Source: Candidatus Altimarinota bacterium
GTDB taxonomy: Bacteria; Patescibacteriota; Gracilibacteria; UBA1369; LOWO2-01-FULL-3
Length of the DNA stretch: 54,592 bases
Direction of reading: 5' to 3'
NCBI GenBank assembly: GCA_016763975.1
Contig: JAESSS010000086.1
Coordinates: forward strand, 1-54,592
Each line of letters opens with the position of its first letter. The stretch's first letter is position 1. This document shows positions 21,508-24,065 of this stretch, piece after piece. Both the position numbers and the translations under genes were made by a program. The notes below the pieces were generated by a model that worked only from the letters and a program-made list of their open reading frames with translations, was not told where the DNA came from and did no database searches.

Positions 21508-21583
21508 TGGCAGGCCCACCAGGATTCGAACTCGGACTTTTGGTTTTGGAGACCAACGTGCTAACCATTAACACTATGGGCCT
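21508..21583 (-). tRNA. trnW: tRNA-Trp (CCA anticodon)
   Basis: 76 nt including encoded 3' CCA. Acceptor stem AGGCCCA/TGGGCCT is perfect with discriminator G; the anticodon stem TTGGT/ACCAA encloses the loop CTCCAAA, so the anticodon is CCA (Trp, UGG). The T-loop is TTCGAAT; the T-stem has one A-C mismatch (CCGAG/CCTGG). The CCA anticodon fits TGA being a stop in this genome. Confidence 0.93.
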
Positions 21584-21614: not shown

Positions 21615-22514
21615 ATGAGTGAGAGATCAATCATTTGGAGAAGCTGGGGGCTTGCTTTAATCCTGTTGTCAGGGTACTATTCTCCTCCTATGTCAATAAA
21701 TCCAACAACTGGTGTGAGACTTGAGCTAGGCCGAGAGGCTCAGGATTTGTCTAATCAGTCTCGGGATATTTGTCGTGAGGTCATGAATGGTGATCGTGAA
21801 CTGGATGATCAGTCTCGGGAGTTTTTGCGTGAAGCTGTTGAAAGGATAGGTCATCAGTCGGCTAGATTTCAGTTTATGGTTGAGAGTGTTTTGAATGGGG
21901 AGGTTGATGATGAGTATGTTCGGAGTATAAGAGTTTTTTGGAAGGAATTATTCGCTGGTGTTGATTCTTATGTTGAGGCTATTTTTGATGAAAAATTTAA
22001 GGCTTTGTCGAGTAGAAGAAATGTTAGTTTTGATACGATTGATGATGATTATGTGCAGAGGCTGAGAGATGATGCTGCTGATTTGCAGAATATGAGAGTT
22101 TTGTGGGAGGGATTATTGGCTGGTCGGTATCCAGATGTGGATTCTCATCATGGTTTTGCTGTTAGTAGAGATGATGATTCGGCTAGGTTTGAATTTAATG
22201 TTGGGGCTTTGCCGAGAATGATCGTTGATTTTGGAAGTGAGGAAGGTGATAAAAATGATGGGGAGCTTAGGGGGATTAGGATTATGGGTCCTGATGAAAA
22301 AGGTTTTAATTTTGAATTGAAAGCTGAATATGGGGGATATAATATTATTATAGATTCTTTAGGGGGAATTGTTTTGGATAATTATAGTGACAAAACGATT
22401 GAGAGGATTGAAGATAATGAGTCTAGGGATCAGTTATCATTAGGTTTATTGGCTGAGTTGCGTGAAGCACTTGATAAACATAAGTCTGGGATTAGTTTTT
22501 CATATCATCTTTAA
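21615..22514 (+). CDS. hypothetical, possibly exported protein
   Basis: 299 residues. The N-terminus SIIWRSWGLALILLSGYYS is a short hydrophobic stretch that could be a signal or anchor. The rest is acidic and helical (RESVLNG, DDDYVQRLRDDAADLQNMRVLWEGLLAG), with a possible internal repeat: VRSIRVFWKELFAG and NMRVLWEGLLAG. The last third is beta-rich. Not recognised. It follows the tRNA-Trp region on the opposite strand and precedes the ilvC leader. Confidence 0.55.
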   Translation: MSERSIIWRSWGLALILLSGYYSPPMSINPTTGVRLELGREAQDLSNQSRDICREVMNGDRELDDQSREFLREAVERIGHQSARFQFMVESVLNGEVDDEYVRSIRVFWKELFAGVDSYVEAIFDEKFKALSSRRNVSFDTIDDDYVQRLRDDAADLQNMRVLWEGLLAGRYPDVDSHHGFAVSRDDDSARFEFNVGALPRMIVDFGSEEGDKNDGELRGIRIMGPDEKGFNFELKAEYGGYNIIIDSLGGIVLDNYSDKTIERIEDNESRDQLSLGLLAELREALDKHKSGISFSYHL

Positions 22515-22581
22515 TAGTTCACGCTCTTCGAGTACGCTTTTCTTGACTAGTCGAGGCTTAATGGCTTATGCTCGTTTTTGC

Positions 22582-22653
22582 ATGAGAAATTCAAACACAC
22601 ATTTCGTCACAACGATTATGCTAACTCTGATTATTAATCAGCGGGAGTCGTGA
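22582..22653 (+). CDS. candidate ilv leader peptide
   Basis: A 23-codon reading frame, MRNSNTHFVTTIM then LTLIINQRES, with Val, Ile, Leu, Leu, Ile, Ile codons inside a ten-codon block (22606-22635) just before a structured region. In-frame ATGs also exist at 22561 (30 codons, preceded by GAGG) and 22618 (11 codons). A promoter TTGACT-18-TATGCT (22543-22572) would start the RNA close to ATG 22582. Enrichment in branched-chain codons upstream of ilvC matches known ilv/leu leader peptides of other bacteria; this one is inferred, not shown. Confidence 0.5.
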   Translation: MRNSNTHFVTTIMLTLIINQRES

Positions 22654-22710
22654 TGTTTGTGTAAACTTTAATTCACTTGTCACTCCCGCTCAGAAGAAGC
22701 GGGATTTTTT
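22627..22710 (+). promoter_or_regulatory. candidate transcription attenuator upstream of ilvC
   Basis: Three competing hairpins. Segment 1:2 CTGATT-att-AATCAG (22627-22641); segment 2:3 AGCGGGAGT (22640-22648) with ACTCCCGCT (22682-22690), 9 bp perfect; segment 3:4 TCCCGCT (22684-22690) with AGCGGGA (22698-22704) followed by T6 (22705-22710), a strong terminator. Segment 3 can pair with 2 or 4 but not both, and segment 2 overlaps the end of the leader frame. Full translation would mask segment 2 and allow termination; stalling at Ile/Leu codons would free it. The 3:4 hairpin could alternatively just terminate the 21615 gene. Confidence 0.6.
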
Positions 22711-22728
22711 ATTTATATAACATTTTGA

Positions 22729-23037
22729 ATGATGAATATCAGGAATCAAAGTTGTCCCAGTGAAAAATGCACATATTTTGAACAGATTTGTGCAGGCAAC
22801 GTGGTGATTCATTCTCGTAAGGAGTCACGGTTTCGTTGTAATTGTTGTGGCAAAACTTGGGTGGGTCATCGGGAGAGCATGCATTATGGTTTGAGATCGG
22901 GGGAACGCAAAATTATGGTGACCGGTTATATGTTGGGTGAAGGATTTAGTATTCGGCATATTGCCAAGATGCTCAGTATCAGTCCAAGTACGGTTCAGCG
23001 TTTTAAAAAGCGTATCGCAAATTTTGTTGGGGCATAG
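22729..23037 (+). CDS. zinc-ribbon plus HTH protein (transposase N-terminus-like)
   Basis: 102 residues. The first half has paired Cys (CPSEKCTYFEQIC, then FRCNCCGKTW) like the zinc ribbon at the start of IS1/IS1595-type transposases, and the second half is a helix-turn-helix (FSIRHIAKMLSISPSTVQRFKKRI). No catalytic domain follows, so it is either a domesticated DNA-binding protein or a transposase remnant. It sits between the attenuator and ilvC, 38 bp upstream of ilvC on the same strand, and could be the local regulator. Confidence 0.65.
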   Translation: MMNIRNQSCPSEKCTYFEQICAGNVVIHSRKESRFRCNCCGKTWVGHRESMHYGLRSGERKIMVTGYMLGEGFSIRHIAKMLSISPSTVQRFKKRIANFVGA

Positions 23038-23075: not shown

Positions 23076-24065
23076 ATGTCTGATGTGAAAATTTATCATG
23101 ATGCTGATGTGGATGAGGGAGTTTTGGAGGGCAAGAAAGTGGCGGTGATTGGTTATGGGGCTCAGGGTCGGGCGCAGGCTCGCATGATGCATGAATCTGG
23201 TGTGGAGATTGTGGTTGGTGCTAGGGAAAATGGCGCTTCTTGGAGCAAGGTTCAGGAGGATGGTTTGAAGGTGATGACAATTGCTGAGGCTGCGAAATGG
23301 GCTGATATTGTGCATATTTTGATTCCGGATGAATGTCAGAAGAAATGTTTTAATGAAGAAATTGTTGCTGGGTTGGTTGATGGAAATATTTTGTGTTTTT
23401 CACATGGTTTTGCGATTTGTTATGATCAAATTGTGCCGCCGGCAGGAGTTTCTGTGATTATGGTGGCGCCTAAATCTCCAGGTACCGAAGAATATAAATG
23501 TTTTAAAGAAGATAAAGGTGTGCCGGCTTTGATTTCAGCGAGAGTTGATAAAGGTGGTGCTAAGGAAATTGCTTTGGCGATGGCCAAAAAGATGAAATTT
23601 ACGAAGGCGGGAGTGATGGAATGTACTTTTGAGCAGGAGGCTTATGAAGATTTGTTTGGTGAACAGGCTGTGTTGTGTGGAGGTGTTGTGGAGCTAATCA
23701 AAACTGGATTTGAAGTGCTAACCGAGGGTGGATATCCGCCTGAGTTGGCTTATTTTGAATGTTTGCACGAGATGAAATTGATTGTGGATCTTTTGCAGGA
23801 GGGTGGCATAGAGAGGATGTATGAAGTGGTTTCTAATACTGCGGAATTTGGTGGACTGACTCGAGGAAAAAGGATTATTACTCCAGCGGTTAAGGAGGAA
23901 ATGAAGAAAATGTTGAAGGAGGTTGAGGATGGTACTTTTGCTAAGGAGTGGATTGAGGAGTCGGAAAATAATGGAATGAAGAGGCTGCTTGAATTGAGAA
24001 AAGAACAAGGAGAACACCCTATTGAAGTGGTTGGTAAAAAGATTAGAGGGATGTTTGGGCGTTAG
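23076..24065 (+). CDS. ilvC: ketol-acid reductoisomerase (IlvC)
   Basis: 329 residues, class I length. The NAD(P)-binding GYGAQG is at 26-31, followed by VVGARENGASW, whose Arg/Ser pattern suits NADPH. FSHGF (H110) and APK (K133) are present, D192 and E196 (YEDLFGEQ) supply Mg ligands, and VSNTAEFGG (S253) ends the knotted domain. It converts acetohydroxy acids into dihydroxy acids for Val, Leu and Ile. APKSPGTEEY deviates from the usual APKGPGH.VR. No ilvB, ilvD or ilvE is in the window, so the pathway partners are elsewhere or absent. It overlaps the convergent DUF59 gene by 4 bp. Confidence 0.95.
   Translation: MSDVKIYHDADVDEGVLEGKKVAVIGYGAQGRAQARMMHESGVEIVVGARENGASWSKVQEDGLKVMTIAEAAKWADIVHILIPDECQKKCFNEEIVAGLVDGNILCFSHGFAICYDQIVPPAGVSVIMVAPKSPGTEEYKCFKEDKGVPALISARVDKGGAKEIALAMAKKMKFTKAGVMECTFEQEAYEDLFGEQAVLCGGVVELIKTGFEVLTEGGYPPELAYFECLHEMKLIVDLLQEGGIERMYEVVSNTAEFGGLTRGKRIITPAVKEEMKKMLKEVEDGTFAKEWIEESENNGMKRLLELRKEQGEHPIEVVGKKIRGMFGR

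Follow-up and report, generated by a model that had tools for sequence, protein, structure and literature searches.

The window analysed here is a stretch of 54,592 nt, contig C71 of a Patescibacteria genome (1.45 Mb, 92% complete, 103 contigs). It carries a gene for a small protein with a zinc ribbon and a helix-turn-helix (HTH), followed by ilvC and preceded by a promoter, a short leader ORF and three alternative hairpins, laid out as follows:

22519 to 22555, plus strand: operator-like element TCACGCTCTTCGAGTACGCTTTTCTTGACTAGTCGAG, overlapping the -35; recognized by comparison of 21 promoters
22543 to 22572, plus strand: promoter TTGACT-18-TATGCT, a consensus match; predicted transcript start at about 22579
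22582 to 22653, plus strand: leader ORF MRNSNTHFVTTIMLTLIINQRES and stop, 23 codons, with an alternative ATG at 22561; read from the sequence and from equivalent ORFs at other loci
22606 to 22635, plus strand: control codons V T T I M L T L I I, read from the sequence
22608 to 22661, plus strand: pause/protector hairpin 1:2, arms 22608-22622 and 22646-22661, from the minimum-energy fold
22639 to 22691, plus strand: antiterminator 2:3, 22639-22654 with 22672-22691, core 22640-22648/22682-22690
22684 to 22710, plus strand: intrinsic terminator 3:4, TCCCGCTCAGAAGAAGCGGGA plus T6, a hairpin at 22684-22704 followed by six T
22729 to 23037, plus strand: zinc-ribbon and HTH gene, 102 aa, resembling InsA, the N-terminal part of IS1 transposase
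23076 to 24065, plus strand: ilvC, ketol-acid reductoisomerase, above the cut-off for NF004017 and TIGR00465; probably the distal gene of this unit

Upstream, a 299-aa ORF without a Pfam match (21615-22514) separates the leader from a tRNA gene on the minus strand (21511-21583).

A sequence-only reading of this DNA had proposed a leader-peptide attenuator at this place, and the parts that it described were all recovered. The short frame with V, I, L, L, I and I in ten positions is present and also contains three Thr codons; the 1:2, 2:3 and 3:4 hairpins, including the T-tailed terminator, are present as well, and the promoter stands close to the leader start. The ATG at 22582 is the likelier start codon, because the ATG at 22561 falls within the promoter and the transcript is predicted to start only at about 22579. 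The leader stop, TGA at 22651-22653, sits within segment 2. TGA recoding is known in some Gracilibacteria and was ruled out for the window genome, where 7 of 38 long ORFs end at TGA; thus, the leader stop is genuine.

The minimum-energy fold of the region contains hairpin 1:2 together with the terminator at -39 kcal/mol; shuffles averaged -29.1 (z = -2.66), and none of 200 matched this energy. In the competing 2:3 helix, AGCGGGAGT (22640-22648) pairs with ACTCCCGCT (22682-22690); the antiterminator duplex has an energy of -19.1 kcal/mol and exceeded dinucleotide shuffles at p = 0.006. Terminator-like sites in the region were no commoner than in shuffles. In a strict test that allowed any amino acid and any frame, the codon run of the window by itself fell within chance (p = 0.43), and the case for an attenuator therefore stands on the relatives. 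Moreover, the amino acid sensed in the window is uncertain, because the run mixes Thr and Met with Ile, Leu and Val.

Searches of the class (353 genomes), first with the HTH sequence and later with a profile of 19 rows, gave 21 places in 17 genomes, and the leader layout precedes every intact HTH homologue found in the class. A T-tailed terminator lies upstream of the HTH gene at all 21 loci, at a distance of 16-54 nt (102 nt in one), its position having been re-set by eye at two of them. A sigma-70-like promoter, scored as a consensus match and not as a mapped start, occupies the equivalent place at 21/21 loci, and the equivalent short ORFs at other loci end in or beside segment 2. At L107, L109, L110, L111, L114, L124, L125 and L126, the leader ATG is only a few bases past the predicted transcript start, as if the transcript were leaderless.

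We compared pairing of the terminator 5' arm with its upstream region to 500 dinucleotide shuffles per locus (p <= 0.05). The antiterminator exceeded the shuffles at 20 of the 21 loci (combined p of about 1e-27), and its pairing region always lay 36-64 nt 5' of the terminator, where the leader ends. A control set of 27 other terminators within these loci showed an antiterminator in 2 cases (Fisher 2.7e-10 versus 20/21), and the stronger of these two control hits was recognized as an additional Thr leader, MNNEIHNQFVTTTTTTNLGLR and stop. At this locus (L137; G044:C18, minus strand, leader at about 4666), the Thr leader has a perfect TTGACA/TATAAT promoter, an antiterminator and a terminator; the gene behind it has no known function, and no HTH gene is present. 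Compensatory changes in relatives, for which the sequence-only reading had proposed to look, were also found. When upstream regions were exchanged between loci, segment 3 paired best with its own segment 2 in 16 of 21 cases, where about 1 was expected, and the arms therefore change together. Given how widely the stem sequences differ between the 21 loci, this preference for the own partner is equivalent to compensatory change in each of the three segments. Searches of the window and 18 related loci against Rfam, including T-box and SAM riboswitches, returned nothing at the gathering score except tRNAs, and matches below threshold were at chance level.

By codon run, with classes assigned by reading the peptides, the 21 leaders divide into eight branched-chain, seven Met-Met-Met, four Thr and two (L108 and L115) with no clear run, and overall the runs exceed dinucleotide-preserving shuffles (p = 1.5e-7). 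An amino-acid run is present in 19 of 21 leaders, and 8 of 21 are of the branched-chain type. Branched-chain runs read ALVIIKLL (L109), ALIIVAIITL (L110), ALISLNILALL (L111), LLAITLRV (L116), VVVV (L117), LNLSILVI (L121) and LILGLILI (L126); the four Thr-type loci read TTTTTTT, TTTTTT, TITTT and KTTTT, and MMM is found at seven loci. In the Met leaders, the stretch after MMM (SPTDFVVSSS) is conserved, and the same DNA forms segment 2.

Leader type tracks HTH subfamily. Met labels required 2 changes on the HTH tree, in which branches other than those of the Met clade are weakly supported, compared to a mean of 6.0 for shuffled labels (0/500 as low), and L114 makes at least one independent Met case on this tree. 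In genomes with two HTH paralogues (L113/L123 in G044, L109/L125 in G085, L117/L126 in G058, L124/L108 in G006), the paired leaders mostly differ in type, as Met and Thr, branched-chain and Thr, or Met and unclear. The nearest homologue of the window HTH protein (60% identical) is in G006, where the leader reads ..RLIMAFCKRV.. and the branched-chain run is mostly lost. Such changes of specificity between homologous loci provide natural experiments on how a sensor is retuned.

The genes behind the leaders vary between loci. Gene and leader match most clearly at ilvC in the window, at a homocysteine S-methyltransferase gene preceded by a Met leader (L142) and at thrS within a unit of the Thr type (L135). 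We also searched blind for stretches of six Thr codons with a terminator behind them, and this led to Thr leaders (L229, L254) immediately upstream of thrS in G063 (MKFFATTTTTTTVTPEQV and stop) and G058 (MHIRLNTTTTTTARRVV and stop). The G058 thrS also has a promoter-like site 3' of the terminator, and a weaker Thr leader precedes thrS in G044. Since these 2 clear and 1 weaker cases were the only ones among 70 thrS upstream regions, we rejected the idea that the Thr leader is ancestral to thrS and regard the device as scattered.

With a covariance model built for the Met type (R1), two further copies that lack an HTH gene were recovered, in G053 and G087. In G053, the HTH gene has been lost and the leader directly adjoins the gene that elsewhere comes after HTH, which shows that a leader can have the following gene as its output. 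The G087 copy (L206/L215; G087:C15:2711-2918) is a complete Met-type promoter-leader-terminator with neither an HTH gene nor a same-strand gene directly behind it; it may be an orphan, or a small RNA that stands on its own. At L145, L148 and L216, a protein of about 300 aa that starts MSKLxYPDRxFSLSDCHGGQ... was found only behind Met-type leaders, in three genomes. A role of this protein (L145/L148/G053) as a SAM hydrolase was considered and rejected: there was no sequence match in Pfam, NCBIfam or PDB, and the structural model had a pLDDT of 43.5. Behind the Met leader of L144 (G037:C191), the HTH gene is followed by a methyltransferase-like gene, a 2-isopropylmalate/homocitrate-synthase-like (LeuA-like) gene, and apparent aminotransferase and aconitase-type genes. 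Recognizable ilv or leu genes were absent behind L109, L110, L111, L116, L117, L121 and L126.

In the window, ilvC starts 38 nt after the HTH gene on the same strand, and no strong terminator lies in the gap. The sequence-only reading had taken ilvC, and perhaps the HTH gene, to be regulated by the attenuator, and had described a reduced genome with only ilvC visible. The partnership of attenuator and HTH gene stood (21/21 homologues); that with ilvC did not carry over, as ilvC lies behind the HTH gene only in the window genome. Likewise, ilvC orthologues in the same order, 63-70% identical, have no such leader upstream, and we rejected the leader as a general feature of ilvC, since the ilvC genes of L002-L005 and L024 lack one. 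The claim of a lone ilvC was mistaken. The genome also contains ilvB, ilvN and part of ilvE (contig C10) and ilvD (contig C30), with ilvN and ilvE identified by reading the sequence, and therefore a branched-chain pathway exists for regulation. There is no leader at ilvD, and the upstream end of ilvEBN lies beyond the contig edge. G006 has the same suf genes after the HTH gene as the window genome, but lacks ilvC, and no degraded ilvC was found there.

The strongest competitor to our reading is that the attenuator serves the HTH gene alone, and that ilvC has its own promoter and stands behind the HTH gene by coincidence. We judge this possible, although the less probable account. It would explain why the leader accompanies the HTH gene throughout and ilvC only once, and why the ilvC orthologues do without a leader, and a possible extended -10 (TGCTATATT) is located just upstream of ilvC (23076). 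Against it stand the short same-strand gap without a strong terminator, the arrangement in G053, and the cognate or amino-acid-related genes behind several other leaders; in addition, between G000 and G006 a difference in leader type coincides with the presence or absence of ilvC. Regulation of ilvC by the leader, through presumed co-transcription with the HTH gene, is a plausible interpretation of this arrangement.

A second competitor, which we consider improbable, is a sensor of stalling or translation rate without amino-acid specificity (an arrest peptide or a general slowdown), or a small RNA or short protein as the actual product. Such a device would be consistent with the absence of clear runs in L108 and L115, with the lack of a downstream partner at G087:C15, and with the conservation of SPTDFVVSSS, though this last is also the DNA of segment 2. 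In contrast, 19 of the 21 leaders have runs of a single class, three classes are represented, and Thr runs precede thrS, all of which argue for specificity.

The HTH proteins share zinc-ribbon cysteines and the HTH with the N-terminal region of IS1-family transposases (NF033558, NF050000). The IS1 model NF033558 was matched, weakly, by all 19 family members scanned; the window protein scored 27.5 bits against a cut-off of 100, and only with the N-terminal part of the model. Unlike IS1 transposase, the HTH proteins are about 100 aa long, lack a catalytic domain, occur in 1-2 diverged copies per genome and score below the family cut-off, and none qualified as a full-length IS1 transposase. A fold search with a model of the HTH protein (pLDDT 82) gave generic HTH matches only, none with E < 0.1. 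There were no relatives in the viral contigs, plasmids or phages searched, and no second copy of the window DNA in its genome. From these comparisons, the HTH protein looks as if it was domesticated from an IS1-type transposase. It is very unlikely that the conserved DNA and RNA are part of an IS1-related mobile element with the hairpins as its ends. The N-terminal resemblance and the patchy distribution (17 of 353 genomes) are what such an element might show, but the few diverged copies, the missing catalytic domain and the lack of matches in mobile DNA or of a second copy in the genome all speak against it, as does a leader and terminator logic that is intact and codon-specific.

The relatives have an operator-like element, YCACnnTAT......TACAACATTATTGACAnnnGTCAAA, which is often present at the 21 promoters and of which TCACGCTCTTCGAGTACGCTTTTCTTGACTAGTCGAG in the window is a diverged form. 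In its strict form the pattern is found roughly once in each genome and almost nowhere but at leaders of this kind, which suggests that the HTH protein has its own promoter as a target. The TTGACTAGTCGAG promoter would then be a candidate target of the HTH protein, and the conserved promoter element suggests autoregulation. A wider regulon was rejected, as the operator-like pattern is essentially confined to leaders; the one further match is an orphan Met-type leader.

Least likely of all, by a small step, is the case that the sequence-only reading had set against itself, in which the hairpins merely terminate the upstream 21615 gene, the palindrome is due to chance and the short ORF is noise: terminator-like sites are common and the codon run by itself does not exceed chance, but the gene ends at 22514 and a conserved promoter stands between this point and the hairpin, a poor fit for a simple gene end, and moreover the arrangement is kept at homologues with different upstream genes, antiterminators are found at 20/21 loci versus 2/27 controls, and leader specificity tracks HTH clades.

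The leader, both alternative helices, the promoter, the conservation at all HTH homologues and the switching of codon specificity came directly out of the computations. We put the probability that the window feature is a classical ribosome-mediated transcription attenuator at about three in four, as judged from sequence comparison. Transcription would start near 22579, and a ribosome would translate the 23-codon leader. When charged Ile/Leu/Val (and Thr) tRNAs are ample, the ribosome would reach the stop in segment 2 and block 2:3, so that terminator 3:4 would form and transcription would end near 22710. If, instead, these tRNAs lack their amino acids, the ribosome would presumably stall on V-T-T-I-M-L-T-L-I-I in segment 1, 2:3 would form, and RNA polymerase would read into the HTH gene and probably ilvC. 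The leader of the window most likely senses the charging of branched-chain tRNAs, and perhaps also of Thr tRNA. Because the layout is conserved, the codon runs vary and the thrS leaders were found blind, we consider it very probable that ribosome-mediated attenuation of the classical type operates in this order (Ca. Peregrinibacteria relatives). A broader proposal, on which we are evenly divided, is that the class carries a modular starvation-response cassette made up of a promoter/operator, an attenuator of exchangeable specificity (branched-chain, Thr or Met) and a domesticated IS1-type HTH gene in first position, with amino-acid genes (ilvC, thrS, methyl-transfer) added. If so, no earlier case of leader-peptide attenuation would be known from this radiation.

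The usual picture of Patescibacteria, an uncultured branch that is not known to use leader-peptide attenuation, is of reduced and dependent cells that regulate little. If our reading is true, some of them sense their own amino-acid shortage and respond by translation-coupled transcription, and leader-peptide control arose in, or spread to, bacteria far outside the Proteobacteria, Actinobacteria and Bacilli. The Met-type leader is directly testable with reporters.

Enteric ilv, leu and thr leaders work by the same ribosome-mediated attenuation logic. The Patescibacteria leaders share with enteric attenuators (ilvGMEDA, leuABCD, thrABC, hisG, trpE) a short ORF with many codons for the sensed amino acids, the 1:2, 2:3 and 3:4 alternatives, a stop in segment 2, a T-tailed terminator and an adjacent promoter. 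They differ in that the first gene encodes an IS1-InsA-like HTH protein and not a biosynthetic enzyme, in that the leader starts a few bases or about 25-35 nt from the transcript start, and in having no Rfam match. Leader-peptide attenuators have been predicted in Actinobacteria at trp, ilvB and leuS (PMC1262725) and in Bacilli at hisS/hisZ (PMC2965389); as of 2010, before the Bacilli his case, no such leader system had been shown beyond Proteobacteria and Actinobacteria (PMC2965389). For Met genes, PMC1262725 states that S-box riboswitches control them in other species, and it found no RNA element at Met operons of Actinobacteria. The open papers that we searched, which make a weak negative, contained no leader-peptide attenuation in Patescibacteria, CPR or Peregrinibacteria and no Met-codon leaders, and we have not seen a methionine-type leader described before. 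The leaders of Actinobacteria and Bacilli (PMC1262725, PMC2965389) thus show the same logic outside Proteobacteria, including at aminoacyl-tRNA synthetase genes, whereas those described here belong to another phylum and include Met and Thr types.
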